Below, in pieces: positions 17,101 to 60,471 of a stretch of 64,000 nucleotides of DNA (position 1 is the first letter of the stretch; every line of letters starts with the position of its first letter). The DNA comes from Tetmemena sp. SeJ-2015 (taxonomy: Eukaryota > Ciliophora > Spirotrichea > Sporadotrichida > Oxytrichidae): positions 19,725 through 83,724 of the forward strand of contig JAJKFJ010021742.1 of the NCBI GenBank assembly GCA_027382625.1. The letters are read 5' to 3'. The translations under genes and the position numbers were made by a program. The notes under the pieces were generated by a model. The model ran no database searches, was not told the DNA's origin, and was given only the letters and a program-made list of their open reading frames with translations.

Positions 17101-20100
17101 GAGGTGCTGGACCAGAAAATTTAATCTTTAATTCGTGAGAAGATTTTAAGTATATATTAAATAATATACATTATCCCAGTTCCGAGGTTCTTAGCTACGA
17201 TAACCTCTATCTCCAGATATTGACAAGTGAAAAATGAGTCATTCTTATCTCTAACATTTTACATGAAATACTTATCTGTAAGGATTATATGTATTTAATA
17301 TTTGAAAAGTATAAATCGTTATGCTCAAAATATTGCTACACTCTTTTACTTTATTTAATAAAAATTTAATTAAATATACAACTTTAATTATTTAAAGCAT
17401 ATGTAAATAAAAATAAGCACATTTGGGATTTGAGTATTGCCAATCTATAGCTTAATAAATTGCTTAAGTACTGATAATGAACATAATGACTCTTTCATTT
17501 TCGAATTAAATAAGGTCGTTGCCGCATTCAGAGTCAATATTAACCTAAATGGTGAATTAGGTTAAAGAAGCTGATTATAAAATATAAAGATTATTATGCC
17601 TTAATATCCAAAATATATATTTAGGGTACTAAATACTCATCTGAAACTGCAGCTTGTAAAACACTAGTTCCTGACTGCAAATTAAAATTTCTTGGAATTT
17701 CACTAGAGCCATTGACAAAGATCAAAATAATTTATAAAGATCAATTCGAAGGTGACTGCGCATATTTTAGTTTAGAGGTAATCCATTAAGTCGATTGCAT
17801 TTGTAAGAACAGGATAATCTTCTGCCAAAAGATCTAATTAATAATCATAAGGTTGGTCAATTGCTCCTTCTGCTTTATATAAGGGATAAGAGTTGCAATC
17901 AGCCTGGATTGTGAGGGCAATAATAACGTAATCAAAAATAAATCAGAGGATTCGTCTCCCAGAGAGGCTAAAATTAAAAAAATAAAATGTATTCTATTTA
18001 CTTCGAAAATATTTTTAAAATGAATATATGTTATTATTTTAAATAAGTTAGAATTGCAACATTATTTTTAATGAGTATTATGTTTTCAGCTTTGTTTTTC
18101 AAAATTTTAAACTGATGGAGTGACTGTTGACCTACGTTAACGGAGAGCAGGCTGAGTTTCCTGATGGAGCGTTCCTGATATAGTGGCCGTTTTTTTAAAA
18201 GTTCTATATTCTCGCCGAAATTTAATTGAAAAACCGAATTTTAATAAAATAATTAAGAACATCTCTAAACTTTTAAATTTACCGGATTCGTTTATTCGTT
18301 TAAATTAAGGCGTACCCATCTCTACGACCGCACCTGAATTCCCACTAATCCACCATTCCACCGCAACTAAACTTAGAGATCAGGTCCACCAGGGTGCCAC
18401 CGCGGTCCAACATGTACGATCTCGCCTCTAAGCGCTAACAGTATCAGGAAGCCGGAGTGTGATCCATGGCCAGTGCGGAGTGCCCCCAGGGGCGAGGGTT
18501 CGAACCCTGCTGGTGACCAGAGACGGTTTTGCCTGTGTGAGACGGTGTTTACAGTGAGGACTTGGTAAGGATGAGTAGAGCGGCAGGAGAAGTGAGGGAC
18601 GGTTCTAAGAATCACCGGCAGGGTTCGAACCCTCGCCCCCTGGGGGCACTCCGCACTGGCCATGGATCACACTCCGGCTTCCTGATACTGTTAGCGCTTA
18701 GAGGCGAGATCGTACATGTTGGACCGCGGTGGCACCCTGGTGGACCTGATCTCTAAGTTTAGTTGCGGTGGAATGGTGGATTAGTGGGAATTCAGGTGCG
18801 GTCGTAGAGATGGGTACGCCTTAATTTAAACGAATAAACGAATCCGGTAAATTTAAAAGTTTAGAGATGTTCTTAATTATTTTATTAAAATTCGGTTTTT
18901 CAATTAAATTTCGGCGAGAATATAGAACTTTTAAAAAAACGGCCACTATATCAGGAACGCTCCATCAGGAAACTCAGCCTGCTCTCCGTTAACGTAGGTC
19001 AACAGTCACTCCATCAGTTTAAAATTTTGAAAAACAAAGCTGAAAACATAATATTGAGTGGCTGTTAATATATTATTTGTTACTTAGATCATAAATTAAA
19101 ATAAATCTAGTATGAAGGTAAAACATCATAATTCGTATAGTCCGCCTATATGTAAAGCAAGCCTCCAATTAATTAGGCAGGTGGGAAAGGCAGAGCCTAA
19201 CTTGGATTTTAAACTAAAAAGGCATCGTAAATATTTTATATTGCAAGCTAAAAATTAATAGAAGATTTATTTAGTCCCAAATTAATATTTATTTATTTCC
19301 TTTATTTGAAAAGTATAAGTTTTATTGTTATGATAAACTTAGGTTTTCTTCTGTAATTTTTAATTTCAAATATTTTAAGAAGATTTTCATTAAGTAAAAA
19401 TAATTTTTTAAAATTCATTAAGATTAATTCTTCATTTAATATCTATCAATATCTAATAAAAACTCTTCAATTAATGTATCTATCTATATCAGTCAATTAA
19501 ATTTCATATTCCTTAATTAAATTAGCTATAGAATATATGTACTAATATACGTTCAGCCCCGATTTTTCAAAAATTTTCAGTCTCCTTCTGCAAAGCCTGG
19601 ACAGCGAGGGCGAAGCTCTTGTCAATCTTTGTTAAAACTTGATACTGTAAGTGCTCTTTTTCGGCCAAGTATTGCTAGAGAATTTTTTTTTTTTAAAAAA
19701 AGAGGCAATTTTACCTTATTAAATCCCACAACTATAGGGAAATTTATGGATTTGAACATGCCAATCATGGATGTATTTGAAGCCACTTCTCTAAAGATCA
19801 GTAAAAATACTTTTAAAAATGGCCAATTACTGGAAAAGCTGGATTCCTAGCCATAAGTGAAAAATCGTGGCTGAACATATAATATTTTATTATATACTGA
19901 TAAATATTACTTTTTAAATTAGCAAATTATTTTAAATCGTAAGAGATAAACTTAAATTAAGTTTAAATATTTCTATTCATAATTGAAATTAATACCATAA
20001 AATATTAATGGCATCTTTATATTTTATGACTAGAGTTGTATAATGATTAATTTGTAAATTAATATATCAACCTCGGTTTTTTAAACCGATTTTTCTAACT

Positions 20101-43300: not shown

Positions 43301-46300
43301 TTATGCTTATAAAAGGGGGGAAAAACTTCTTTTTAAAGCACTTTCTTAGCTTACATATTTAAATTATATTATTAAATTAGAGCAACTCATTTTTAAACAT
43401 TTTCATCATTAATATTTTTAGGAAATACACATATACTGGATCTTAAAGTGATGTTAGATATATCCAAAATTGTATAAGTTAAAATTTGATATATTTTTAT
43501 ATTCACATTAAAGCAATGATATAACATAAATATCTTAAATTTTAGCTTGAATTATTGAAATTACGCTGTTTTAAATTAAATTTGGATTTGATGCCTTGGA
43601 GTATCAAGTGATAAATAAATAATTCCTTAGATCCCTAGCTTAATTTAAAAATAACTGCAGATTCTCTTGGCTATAAACTATTAAATATTTATAATTTAAG
43701 ATATCTTAATTTTAAATTTAAGTTATTTAGTCCCAAAGTAAAGAAGAATAATAACGAATAAACTTAAAATTCTCTTCAATAAATATTTTTTAAGATCAGT
43801 ATAATTATGACTTCGCACTATTTAAAGATCTAAATATAAAAGAGCACCATTATCAAATGCTTATTTTTGATTTCATAAATAAATATTTTCATAGCGAAAT
43901 TTATTCTCATTAGTTTTATCAAAGATTCTTTTTTTAATTAAAGCAATAATTGGGTATTCTTTATAAAACATATTGGCTGACTCTGGGAATATAATTTATT
44001 TGAAGCAAGATTCCTAAGGGTAATTTTTCCGCAGAATTATGTCTTCTCATGGGACTTAAATTATGGTCTGATCAAGTACTACCCTCTCTAAGATTAAAAT
44101 TAAATACCTTAGTAGATTCTTGATCTATTACCAAAATATTAAAATAGATAAGCTAAAAATATAAAAAAAAGCATTTATATTTTCTTTACTCTAAATAATT
44201 TATTAATTCATTAGAAGTTAAAAGCCATTTAATTTTCTTCTTCTTTTTTATAAATAATATTGCTCTAGTATTTGGCATAGTCTCAAATCCTTTAAATTAT
44301 AATTAAAGTTATATCTATATAAGATTTTATAAGATAATTTTGAACAATATTTCATAGGTTTGATGTTTTAAATATAAAGTAGTATTCTTTTAAATCTGAG
44401 AAATCTTTTATAAAAAATTGATAAGGTTTGAAAGATAAGAGAATTTATGTAGAATAGTTGTGGTTCAAATCTTTAGAGGGATACGTAATGAATTTTACTC
44501 TAAAAGAAACTAACTATTAAAATGAGTTTTAATTTAATAAAAAGTATGGGGGGCCTTTCCTCGACAGTAAAATTTTATAATGAAAAAAGGCTTTAAAAAT
44601 ATATGTTTATAGGGTAATTTTCGCTCCTAAATCTGATTCTTCCAGTTATTGAGGCTTGTTCGAACATCTAAGGCTTCAAATTTTAATCCTAATTTAGTCT
44701 CATAGAGGCCAGCTGCACCTAAATAAAATCTATATTTTATGCTAATTTTTCGCTATTGTAAAATAAACTTAAAGTGCAATTTTTAAAGAGCGCAACATTT
44801 ATTGAATATATAGCATGCTTCAGTTATAAGCCCAAAGAAGTATAGCTGAAAAATTGCAGCATTAGCCGCTTAATTATGAATTAAATGTTTGGTTCTATAA
44901 AAATGTTGCGCTCTTTAAAAATTGCACTTTAAGTTTATTTTACAATAGCGAAAAATTAGCATAAAATATAGATTTTATTTAGGTGCAGCTGGCCTCTATG
45001 AGACTAAATTAGGATTAAGATTTGAAGCCTTAGATGCTCGAAAAAGCCTCAATAACTGGAAGAATCAGATTTAGGAGCGAAAATTACCCTATAAACATAT
45101 ATTTTTAAAGCCTTTTTTCATTATAAAATTTTACTGTCGAGGAAAGGCCCCCCCAAAAGTATTTTAGAGTTATATTTCGAAAACACACAGTATTCAAAAT
45201 TGCTTAATTTCTATATTTAATAAGAGTTTTTTTATTGCTCCCTCGATAAATTTAAAGGGTTATAAAGTCCTTCATATTTAATTAAATTCTTATCGGCCTC
45301 ACTGATTTGGTCTCATGAATAATTTGTTAAAAACATTGCATTATATAATCCATAAAGTGGAAGTTAGACTTTTAAAACACAGTTGACGACAGGTAAATCT
45401 ATGATAATTGCCCTCTAAAATGCTTTAAAATAATAATATTTCCAGAGAGTTTCTCTAAATCAATTCGAATCTATTTCTTTTTATAATTTAAAATCAAAGC
45501 TATTTAATTGAATTTAAAATTTCTTTGGATGTCTAGTTCTAATCTTTCTCTCCTGAATTAATTGATATGGGAACTAAAATTAAATTATTTAAAAAGAAAT
45601 CTTATATTTAAATTATTTAGGGAAATCTATTTTTGAAAAAAAAGTCTTAAGGTAGTTTTAGGTTTTCTTTTCTTTATCGTTAATTTTTTATTTTCAATTT
45701 AATTAATCAATAATTAACTATTTTAAAATAAAATAAGCACTTCTACGTATTTCTCAGTTTAAAGCGCAATATCCTTTTCAGCTATATAAATTACTGCAAG
45801 CATGGGTTCTGGATAGCTTATGCCATAAGTCTAATAGTATACTCCTGATAAATTCTCTCTTCCAGCTTTTCAAATTTTAATTAGCAATATTATAATTATA
45901 TATTATTTATAAATTTAATTAAAAAAATGAGGAAAATATTTTCTTAAGAAAACTATAGAATATAAAGTCGGAGATAGCACTCTTTCCTAGACTTTATCAG
46001 AAGTAACTTTAGATTCATGCGATGATTTATAAACTTAATTTCAACTTCAATCAACTACATAAATGAAGTAGTTCCAAGTTTCGTACAAATTTAAGGTGGA
46101 AATTTAATCATTCAGGATATATAAATATATGGAAATTATTTATCTCAGCGTTTTTTTTTAATTATGCGATTTTGAACAAGAAAAATATAGGAATTTGATA
46201 GTAACTATATTTTTATTAACATAAAAAATTAAATCTTAATGGTTTGATGAGAAAATATTTAAATTACAAATAGAATAATATTAAGGGATGCTACATAATC

Positions 46301-52644: not shown

Positions 52645-53011
52645 TAGTTTTTATTTCTCGTCAATCCTCTTTTTCGCTATTGTCTTTGCTTAAACATGAT
52701 ATTCAAATCAATTTTTTAAATAATTTAAACTCCATTAGCATTTTTATCAAACTACAGCATAGATTTGCAATTGTTTATCAAGTATAACTAAAATTACATA
52801 ATTTTTAAGTATGTATAGTAATAAAAATTAATTAAATTTTAATACTCTAGAATCTGAGTATCTGGAACTTAATGTGGTATATTGTTTATTTAGGGATCCT
52901 ATTTAGCAAGTCGAATAGCTTTAGATTTGATTATATCACTAAGCTTAGAGAGTTCAAAGCACTCATAAAATAGATTTAAATAGATAAGAACTAGATTTTT
53001 ATTATATTTAA
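52645..53011. other. Spacer
   Basis: About 370 bp of AT-rich DNA downstream of the orphan CDS, ending in the TAA that flanks the next foldback element. Nothing is recognised in it. Confidence 0.3.
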
Positions 53012-53663
53012 GAATTTAATGCAAAATCGTAGGTTGTTAGATCAAGGATAGTGAAGGTGTTTTACCAAGAGATGGTGAATTATATTGCTTTTCCAGTGAA
53101 TAAATATATTTAAAACTTAGCGCCCCACAAATAATATAATGGCAGCTGGAGCTTCTTGTCATCTTTATCGATGACTTGAATATGCCTATAATAGATAAGT
53201 ATACCAGAGTCTCAAACTCCACCACTTCAAAGCAAGTACTCTCTCCTCTACTTTTGGCTACTTTTTTCAAAACTAAGCAACAAAAACGTGAGACAGATTA
53301 GTTTTACCCTAATGATGTAATGATGTTTTAATTTTAGAATTTTAGAGCTAGAAGAGGAATTAAATAAAGAGACATTTTATCATTACTTTTTGAAGAATGA
53401 TTTTAAGCAACTGTCTGCTAAAAGTAGAGGAGAGAGTACTTGCTTTGAAGTGGTGGAGTTTGAGACTCTGGTATACTTATCTATTATAGGCATGTTCAAG
53501 TCATCGATAAAGATCACAAGAAGCTCCAGCTGCCATTATATTCTTTGTGGGGGGCTAAGTTTTAAATATATTTATTCACTGGAAAAGTAATATAATTTAC
53601 CATCTCTTGGTAAAACACCTTCACTATCCTTGATCTAACAACCTACGATTTTGCATTAAATTC
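53012..53663. mobile_element. Foldback element with 247-bp arms
   Basis: Arms 53012-53258 and 53417-53663 are inverted copies starting GAATTTAATGCAAAATCG; the centre is 158 bp. TAA stands on both sides (53009-53011 and 53664-53666), compatible with a 3-bp target duplication of the PIF/Harbinger type, though TAA is very common here. The ORFs at 53037-53270 (minus) and 53390-53590 (plus) are the same sequence mirrored. It may derive from a gene fragment, but there is no further evidence. Confidence 0.7.
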
Positions 53664-53738
53664 TAAGGTATTTTTACTATCCAGCCTTATTTCTCTTAAA
53701 GAGTATCTGAAGTGCTTTTAAATCTCTAAAGGCCACAC

Positions 53739-58194: not shown

Positions 58195-58592
58195 AATATT
58201 CTAACAATCAAGGGGGTAGTCAAAAGTTAAATACACGTTTGAAAAGTGAATCTGAGCGAGTTGATAGCGTGTATTGGAATTTGATTCAGTTGGAGAAAAC
58301 CTTTATTCTAGTAGGAATTTATTTGAAATGTGGAATTTAATTAAATCACAAATATTAAAGTTTAAATCTCAATTAAATTAATTGACACATTTTAAGTTTG
58401 GAACATTGGAACATTGGAACTTTGGAACATTTTGGAGTATTAGGGCGTGATCTCATCTTTTTTTTTAAAATTAGCCGACCAAAGATAGAGCGCATACTAA
58501 TCAAGGCGTAGGAATTGTTCCAATGTTCCAAAGTTCTAATCCTGCGACAGATGGAGTTTAAATATATAAGAGCGTTGGAATATATAATTATT
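58195..58592 (+). repeat. Left terminal inverted repeat, 398 bp
   Basis: Near-perfect reverse complement of 60074-60471. It includes four tandem-like copies of TTGGAACA (58398-58434), whose regular spacing could bind the element's own protein, and an inner end at the AT-rich 58582-58592. Confidence 0.85.
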
Positions 58593-58686
58593 ACAAAACT
58601 AATTAATCATTGCATAGTGCTGAGTTGTTCACTGCTAATCACTTAGTTCTCATCGAAAATGATGAGGTCCTATTTCAGTCAGATCC

Positions 58687-60009
58687 TCAATGTTCGTTTC
58701 TGCCATTCCATCTCCATCTTGTCCAACCCTTATGCTGAATTAGTCCATCTCTGATCATCCTCTCTTCAAAGTATACGGCTAACTGATCTGCTACCATTGG
58801 AAAGGCTTGCTTCACATAATTCTTGCCTCTCAGCATCTCTACAAATTTCACTCTCGCCTCAAACGCCTCTCGGTCAAGGCTGCTCATGTACTTGAGTGGG
58901 GTGTCGTTAGATGTTATAAACACTGAGCATCCTTGGTACCTTTTCTCTGCTGCCATATGCTTTACGTTATGCGCGAACCCTTTGCCTTCAAAGAAGCGCT
59001 TCATCTTTGCAATTCCACTTTTTTTGAAAAGCAATGGGCTGTTCACTTCATCTAAGATGATGAGGGTTGCCGACTACCCCTCCTTTTGCTAATCCAGGAC
59101 AAAGGTATCAGTCACCTCTTCAAGCTGCTCGGAGTGAAATATCTATTCAAGCAAGCCTGCTAGAGAGCTCTTTCCTGTGCCGGGCATCCCATGTAGCCAT
59201 ACTCCTCTCATCTTCTGATCACTCTGTTTCACAATGATCTCATAGATGGCCTCCACTGCCTCCTGCAGATTGTACGACTCAAGAATGTGATCAGTGATTA
59301 TGGGCGCTTCTTCCCTACTGTGTGGGCCAATTCTCATGTCCTCTAAGTATGAAAGCAGCTGATCTCGGTGCGAGAGCTCAAGCTTTGGTATGGCCCCGGC
59401 CTTTCTGTGGAGTTTAAAGAGAGCCTCTATTTTAGATTATTTATCTGAGAGCTTCTCACATACCTTAGGATTAGCCATATTCTTGTTAAAGAGATCCTGG
59501 AAACTCTGGGCTCGACCCTCTCTCATCTGCTGGATGGCATACTGGATAATTGGATCAGATTCCTTGCCCTCCTCTATTGCTTGAGATAGTCTCTCTCTGC
59601 TCACACGTTCTGATTGAACTTCCAGAGCACGGAGCAATTCAGATAGACTTCCAGTGAATACTTTGGCTGGGCCTTGCAATTTGATGGCTTGGGAAAGATT
59701 TCCTCTGTTGATGCTCTTGCACTCTATTTCCTGCTACTCCAAGAATTGCTTTCCTCTGTAATTGTTTGAGTGGAAGTAGTATTTGCTGAGGCCTGGAGAA
59801 ATGCTCTTTAACAGGATGACCAAGTATAGCTCTCTGTCCTTAGAGGTTTCAAAGATCACAACCGACTAAATATCTTTAACGAAGTCAAGCAGGGCTGCTT
59901 CCGTCTGTTTGATCATCTCTCGGGAAAAACTTCTGTCAAGATGTAGGAAAAACGCAAGTTTCTTATGGTAGGATGGAGGATCCTTGCTGGTGTTGGAGGG
60001 CTGATTCAT
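58687..60009 (-). CDS. SF3 helicase, Rep-like, of a TIR element
   Basis: 440 residues from ATG (60009) to TGA (58687), continuous only with TAA/TAG as Gln (six such codons). The C-terminal half carries a superfamily-3 ATPase: Walker A GMPGTGKSS (about residue 280), Walker B TLIILDEVNS, and motif C SVFITSND followed by an Arg (ARVKF) suited to an arginine finger. The ITSN motif is typical of helicase domains in CRESS-DNA virus and parvovirus-type Rep proteins. The N-terminal ~230 residues are helical and charged; I do not see the HUH (HxH) and tyrosine motifs of a rolling-circle nuclease. It ends in a Trp/Arg-rich tail (KGWTRWRWNGRN). Codon use is much less AT-biased than in neighbouring genes, which suggests foreign origin. 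The frame is intact, so the element could be recently active. Confidence is high for SF3 ATPase and moderate for Rep kinship. Confidence 0.75.
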
Positions 60010-60073
60010 TTTACCAAATTGTATCAATAAGGTGGAGAGGCTTCCATTTAAAGTGGAGCTGAATATTTAAATA

Positions 60074-60471
60074 AATAATTATATATTCCAACGCTCTTAT
60101 ATATTTAAACTCCATCTGTCGCAGGATTAGAACTTTGGAACATTGGAACAATTCCTACGCCTTGATTAGTATGCGCTCTATCTTTGGTCGGCTAATTTTA
60201 AAAAAAAAGATGAGATCACGCCCTAATACTCCAAAATGTTCCAAAGTTCCAATGTTCCAATGTTCCAAACTTAAAATGTGTCAATTAATTTAATTGAGAT
60301 TTAAACTTTAATATTTGTGATTTAATTAAATTCCACATTTCAAATAAATTCCTACTAGAATAAAGGTTTTCTCCAACTGAATCAAATTCCAATACACGCT
60401 ATCAACTCGCTCAGATTCACTTTTCAAACGTGTATTTAACTTTTGACTACCCCCTTGATTGTTAGAATATT
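60074..60471 (-). repeat. Right terminal inverted repeat, 398 bp
   Basis: Mirror image of 58195-58592. It begins about 65 bp upstream of the helicase ATG, so the helicase promoter probably lies in or next to this repeat. Confidence 0.85.

Follow-up and report, generated by a model that had tools for sequence, protein, structure and literature searches.

In a 64,000-nt window of contig JAJKFJ010021742.1 (Tetmemena sp. SeJ-2015), by which we mean the whole stretch of DNA analysed, a transposon with long terminal inverted repeats (TIRs) encloses a single gene for a superfamily 3 (SF3) helicase. The 398-nt inverted repeat of the initial annotation is confirmed, 100% complementary, at 58195-58592 and 60074-60471 on either side of one 440-codon gene. 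The element proper, with limits set by an empty copy of its site, is slightly smaller: it spans 58199-60467 (2,269 bp) and has perfect arms of 394 nt, the left at 58199-58592 on the forward strand and the right, its inverted copy, at 60074-60467 on the reverse strand. The outermost 4 nt of each repeat do not belong to the element, whose insertion lies within an AATATT palindrome. The interior is almost filled by the gene (58687-60009, reverse strand, GC 45%), which ends in TGA, reads six TAA/TAG codons as glutamine (code 6) and encodes a protein of 440 residues resembling replication initiators. The window's list of open reading frames (ORFs) contains no other ORF of more than 140 codons wholly inside the element (smaller ORFs were not searched), and the window has no Rfam matches.

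The SF3 motifs of the initial annotation are confirmed: GMPGTGKSS (Walker A) falls at residue 274, LIILDEVNS (Walker B) at 316 and VFITSND (motif C) at 363. A Pfam profile search matched the window protein to DUF5906 (9.2e-7), a domain found in all 15 family members scanned. The C-terminal part joins a helical domain (residues ~151-232; 59314-59559, reverse strand) to the helicase domain (residues ~265-423; 58741-59217, reverse strand), and its top matches among solved structures are adeno-associated virus (AAV) Rep and papillomavirus E1, with parvovirus NS1 also near. The structural alignment to papillomavirus E1 and parvovirus Rep spans residues 151-425, with 9-15% sequence identity in those rows; the helical domain was placed from the VIA-align range 151-423, by comparison with the helicase-adjacent helical region of AAV Rep and E1.

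The N-terminal domain (residues ~12-128; 59626-59976, reverse strand), delimited from a structural model and an alignment of 32 members, is predicted to fold as beta-alpha-beta-beta-alpha-beta (pLDDT 84.6, pTM 0.78). The model resembles ferredoxin-like folds, with no stand-out match in Foldseek or VIA. Across the 32 aligned members (alignment A3) there is neither a conserved histidine nor a conserved acidic triad, and the third strand reads YLVILL, YMVILL, YMALTV and similar, with no HUH. As it has no conserved histidine, the domain is not an HUH nuclease. YF...Y.G is invariant in the same 32 sequences, and Y77 (A3) directly precedes the helix after the third strand, the position at which Rep proteins have YxxK. 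A3 covers 32 of the 39 listed N-terminal domains; L017, L018, L029, L031, L032, L033 and L034 were left out as near-duplicates or partial sequences or, for L032, because the frame is disturbed and YF not retained.

The protein had initially been compared with the Rep of CRESS-DNA viruses. The SF3 motifs of that reading stand, but the N-terminal domain has no conserved histidine and the best structures are AAV Rep and E1; with HUH absent, we rejected membership of CRESS Rep. A DDE transposase domain hidden in the N-terminal half, which would have told against the annotation, was seen neither by Pfam nor by fold comparison. No transposase family was among the Pfam matches of the 15 scanned members, and no primase domain was found in the helicase protein. 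Searches of 5.8 billion proteins with the window protein and with alignment A1 returned no homologues (~8,000 candidates scored each, with uncertain coverage of ciliates).

The gene had been called intact, and it is open over 440 codons; the other 14 members of A1, however, do not share its final 13 residues (58687-58728) and have different C-terminal tails. Among 18 genes selected for being open, dN/dS is 0.12-0.19 in 12 listed pairs with dS of 0.76-1.29 and 0.23-0.50 in six younger pairs (18 of 153 pairs listed, dS <2; the L016 row begins at a later methionine). These ratios indicate that the gene is under purifying selection and kept for function, with the reservation that only open genes were chosen.

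The arrangement is not due to chance, because many other copies exist in the searched 146-Mb assembly (5,213 contigs). The window TIR as a DNA query gave 42 matches, many of them facing pairs, while the window protein gave at least 104 and a distant member at least 100. The proposed transposon is thus a large multicopy family, and its helicase genes lie within TIRs: by self-comparison, inverted arms enclose the gene in 26 of the 30 best protein loci, and two of the four loci without arms (L015, L029, L030, L033) run to a contig end (L029, L033). A further 39 loci (L039-L077, some places counted twice) include four without arms (L045, L052, L056, L060). With up to 2 mismatches, the genome contains 795 copies of the terminal 17-mer TATTCTAACAATCAGGG, which we call the type A end motif, against 25 of the reversed control; a second, type B motif is present 75 times against 1. 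Most elements measure 2.2-2.4 kb and have TIRs of ~400 bp around a single conserved gene for an SF3 helicase, and the clades of the family are ~30% identical in protein.

By hand we paired 51 facing ends, 31 of type A from 100 listed of the 795 places and 20 of type B. A listed helicase match lies within 33 of them, 15 are shorter than 1.7 kb (0.6-1.7 kb), three are 2.0-2.5 kb long without a listed helicase match, and none exceeds 2.67 kb. Contigs C1787 and C3586, and likewise C2025 and C3150, look like duplicates. A distant group of loci (L040, L041, L066-L068, L071, L073, L075-L077) has 1.85-1.95 kb between detected arms of 86-128 nt that are only 71-84% similar; mutual similarity of the flanks suggests true ends ~175 nt further out.

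Comparison of occupied with empty sites, proposed at the outset as a check, yielded empty counterparts, the window's own included. The joined flanks of six elements served as genome queries. Contig C505 (L079), which we infer to be the other allele, carries the window site without the element, 98% identical over the joined stretch and matching 92 of 92 bases at the junction, with a single TA; the window's target-site duplication is accordingly the TA at 58197-58198 and 60468-60469. The empty counterpart of L034 (92 bases) has three mismatches, none close to the junction, and one TA; that of L022 is exact over 24 bases on one side and over nearly 45 on the other, again with one TA; and that of L017 lies in a diverged repeat where one TA scores best. 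No empty site was found for L047, and for L011 only a second contig carrying the left flank. L036 has only diverged paralogues (L082-L084, 77-79% identity) without a clear junction, and in L083 and L084 zero TA scored marginally above one. Insertion duplicates TA, then, for both end types (L017 is of type B, the others of type A). A longer duplication was rejected, as the flanking base varies and a single TA scores best. Immediately beyond the element ends A/T is favoured (20 rows, with L025 mis-parsed in the tallies). Given its empty counterpart and its perfect arms, the window insertion appears to be recent.

TA duplication is a hallmark of Tc1/mariner-type DDE enzymes, and Tec elements make it too. 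The mobilisation by a Rep-type helicase first suggested is not borne out by these sites, which point instead to a Tc1/mariner-like insertion step. As a separate observation, the empty L022 counterpart (L081; C2898:106090-106418) seems to hold a different insertion of ~328 bp, ~24 bp upstream.

The extreme ends of the elements are exchangeable. In 30 arms compared by tip, iteron and protein clade (arms <340 nt, those of <85% identity and duplicates having been dropped), the first ~45 nt fall mainly into the two unrelated types A and B, and 2 of the 30 elements, L054 and L037, differ. Types A and B are each represented in protein clades 2, 3 and 4, and clade 1 is of type A except for L054; of 435 element pairs, 140 belong to different clades but have the same tip type, and 41 belong to one clade but have different tips. 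L032 and L043 share 98% of their first 45 nt with proteins only ~31% identical. Conversely, L025 and L027 have interiors 99% identical, proteins with a dN of 0.009 and outer ~100 nt that are unrelated at both ends, a pattern repeated by L023 and L024 (interior 96% identical) and, as the same outer drop against a 79% interior, by the A/B pair L012 and L016. Among pairs with the same tip, L025/L031 and L012/L013 hardly ever fall below 90% in the outer windows, and L009/L011 has no outer drop. L022 and L023, which also have the same tip but are diverged (64% inside), agree well over no more than the outermost 25 nt. From the L025/L027 and L023/L024 swaps, the window's tip modules, both of type A, measure ~100 nt, with approximate inner limits (58199-58298, forward strand; 60368-60467, reverse strand). 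Because the ends differ on both sides of a hardly changed body, the helicase protein is unlikely to be the tip recogniser; and since both ends differ together, the two arms must come to match soon after a change.

Further in, at a distance of ~200-235 nt from the tip, most arms carry a run of 8-bp repeats (iterons), and inverted copies are often present near 300. Each arm of the window element has four direct copies of TTGGAAC(A/T) and two inverted ones. On the left the direct copies occupy 58398-58429 (forward strand; starts 58398, 58406, 58414 and 58422) and the inverted ones 58516-58531 (reverse strand; starts 58516 and 58524, inverted repeat I8); on the right they lie at 60237-60268 (reverse strand) and 60135-60150 (forward strand), respectively. 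In a period scan of 36 arms, no period other than 8 and its double stands out. Best-window identity reaches 0.85 in 22 arms, is 0.70-0.80 in 8 and at most 0.65 in 6 (L032, L037, L057, L061, L062, L074); no shuffle and no period of 4-7 or 9-15 reaches 0.85. The scan left out arms <340 nt, those of <85% identity and duplicates, and L057, whose arms measure 697 nt, probably represents a different inverted repeat. A stricter threshold gave 52 arrays, every one of them in a TIR; interiors (57 kb) and flanks (66 kb) had none (not de-duplicated).

The arms share descent and are not independent; the telling point is that the period stays constant while the unit changes. Iteron sequence largely tracks protein clade: the unit is TTGGAACA in clade 2, mainly TTGGAATA in clade 4, where L022 mixes both, AATGGAAT or AATGGACT in clade 3, and TTGGTACA, TTCGTACA or ACTAATGC in clade 1. 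Such behaviour is what one would expect if a binding site evolves together with its initiator. Two short elements with type A ends and no gene, L085 and L086 (615 and 836 bp), hold two-unit period-8 repeats with the unit GTCAGA, and their interiors are unrelated to the helicase elements compared. We had at first taken L085 for a tip-only miniature element, a reading rejected because both carry these repeats of their own. By eye, a stretch of their interiors, GGTTCGAA, resembles a tRNA-like box B.

The genome looks like that of a ciliate, as the initial annotation proposed from the window gene's use of the ciliate code; the family genes read TAA and TAG as glutamine and TGA as stop. Nine contigs start directly with C4A4 repeats (the control, the same repeat in another phase, is uninformative); C4A4 telomeres are a spirotrich trait, and Euplotes uses another genetic code. 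The gene for ribosomal protein uL3 (L078 1-420, C3043) is interrupted by ~53 AT-rich bases that are not readable as a GT-AG intron and whose ends, by eye, are an inverted TCAACA...TGTTGA; it is probably an internal eliminated sequence of the germline. Tetrahymena was rejected as the host, since uL3 scored higher against 8azw, a plant structure (420 bits), and against other uL3 proteins than against 4v8p of T. thermophila (390 bits). Together, the code, the contig starts and the uL3 interruption suggest that the assembly contains spirotrich germline DNA. The window also holds three more near-perfect, foldback-like palindromes (18076-19053, 44548-45153 and 52991-53684), with arms of 417, 253 and 268 nt, 94-100% complementary, and spacers of 100-158 nt; the type A end motif is absent from all three.

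How, then, does such an element move and multiply? We put at roughly 0.6 the probability that it is a transposon-replicon, in which the element's own protein initiates replication at the iterons of the TIRs and the tips are acted on in trans by a TA-specific transposase. From the sequences we infer a replication role, iteron binding and a partner transposase. The protein would bind the iterons through its N-terminal domain, assemble as an SF3 ring, melt the inner TIR and recruit host replication, and the element would gain copies on being replicated, whether in place or after excision. Because HUH residues are absent, the protein would work like E1 or large T antigen rather than as a nicking Rep. 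A transposase encoded elsewhere, most likely an abundant Tc1/mariner (DDE_3) enzyme, would cut and join the tips at TA; the two tip types would correspond to two such enzymes, and a tip swap to a change of partner. Arms are often 99-100% identical, and this homogenisation may come from copying one arm off the other during replication. DDE_3 genes are very abundant in the assembly (921 candidates, 150 scored, the listed ones all over the cut-off); none of the 150 scored matches lies within the 51 end pairs, and the DDE_3 matches scored in the genome yielded no partner with the same tips. Tentatively, and at somewhat less than even odds, insertion and replication may be separate exchangeable modules, with tips for foreign transposases and an iteron origin for the element's own E1-like, nuclease-free initiator.

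Alternatively, the protein itself may cut the ends, for example through the conserved tyrosines Y71 and Y77 of A3 or another site, and insert the element at TA as a self-sufficient Rep-type transposon. The helicase is the element's sole gene, no end pair of larger span is seen among the listed end motifs, and the invariant YF...Y.G puts Y77 in a place like that of the Rep YxxK. We nevertheless consider this unlikely, given an N-terminal domain with neither conserved histidine nor acidic triad, the nearly identical L025 and L027 proteins between unrelated tips, so that tip specificity seems not to be theirs, and a TA duplication typical of the DDE enzymes abundant here. The same duplication and the same abundance, with the 15 end pairs too short for a whole element, would also fit a plain non-autonomous Tc1/mariner-type element whose viral helicase is a passenger, without a role in mobility or serving only the host. 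That, too, is improbable: purifying selection acts on the gene in a family whose clades are ~30% identical, the iterons go with the protein clade, even the short L085 and L086 keep period-8 repeats, and a listed helicase match is present in 33 of 51 end pairs. Insertions as mere side products of an extrachromosomal, parvovirus- or papillomavirus-like linear replicon with terminal repeats would suit the structural nearness to AAV Rep, NS1 and E1, the TIR architecture and the parvovirus-like repeats with terminal repeats described in animals (PMC3198968), but the four sites with transposase-like TA duplications, the hundreds of ends sharing one sequence and an element with no room for the usual capsid gene and no other ORF >140 codons make this very improbable.

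The viral initiators papillomavirus E1, polyomavirus large T and parvovirus Rep/NS1 share with the window family an N-terminal domain, a helical (oligomerisation) domain and SF3, and they have repeated binding motifs at their origins. They differ in that the family is a TA-inserting transposon without capsid genes (judged by size for Parvoviridae, smaller ORFs not having been searched), and it lacks the HUH residues and domain of parvovirus Rep. CRESS-DNA Rep has the HUH histidines missing here and serves circular genomes rather than a TIR element, and the helical domain and overall match favour E1 and parvovirus Rep. D5/P4-type primase-helicases (NrS-1, SaPI5) differ in their primase domain and match the structure less well than E1 or Rep. 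Tc1/mariner elements share the TA duplication (three empty sites exact at the junction, one diverged) but encode a DDE/D transposase. Polinton-like viruses and virophages have TIRs and an SF3/D5-like helicase gene among many genes. They are reported to be 14-40 kb long (PMC12220804), against 2.3 kb and one gene here.

The nearest published kind that we found is the parvovirus-like and geminivirus-like transposable elements of animals and a truffle (Liu et al. 2011, PMC3198968). Section 8 of that paper treats the Saccoglossus repeat, DENSOV_HM of Hydra and PIVE/PEVE of planarian. These interspersed or virus-like elements combine an SF3 gene of NS1 or E1 type with terminal repeats or hairpins, and the authors term them transposable elements. 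The Saccoglossus repeat, unlike ours, also has a coat gene, and for the animal elements that section mentions neither TA duplication nor iterons nor exchangeable tips, a comparison made by description only. The geminivirus-like transposon of Tuber melanosporum likewise has a Rep-like gene inside TIRs; its TIRs are 37 bp long, however, and it has two transposase ORFs and no obvious target-site duplication (PMC3198968). TBE of Oxytricha and Tec of Euplotes are, like this family, germline TIR elements of spirotrichs with a Tc1/mariner kind of insertion, but they are described as having three ORFs including a DDE transposase, where this family has one ORF and no transposase (PMC9797194, PMC10901763). 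The word 'helicase' is absent from the main texts of these two germline papers, and among the open-licence papers listed, judged by title and the opening of the abstract, none showed a ciliate or TIR element of the same build. A virus-like initiator inside terminal repeats is a known kind, and the modular tip-plus-origin design has a fair chance of being a class of its own.

These elements bear on the interconversion of virus replication proteins and transposons. Transposons normally bring their own end-cutting enzyme; this family instead brings a putative replication starter with matching iterons. If our reading is true, it becomes testable whether a DNA transposon gains copies by firing its own origin, and if the modular reading also holds, such an element would be a replicon with borrowed transposon ends that it can change, a DNA counterpart of modular plasmids. 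The family would also add, beside TBE and Tec, a further system of germline elements in ciliates, a group in which transposons and genome rearrangement are linked.
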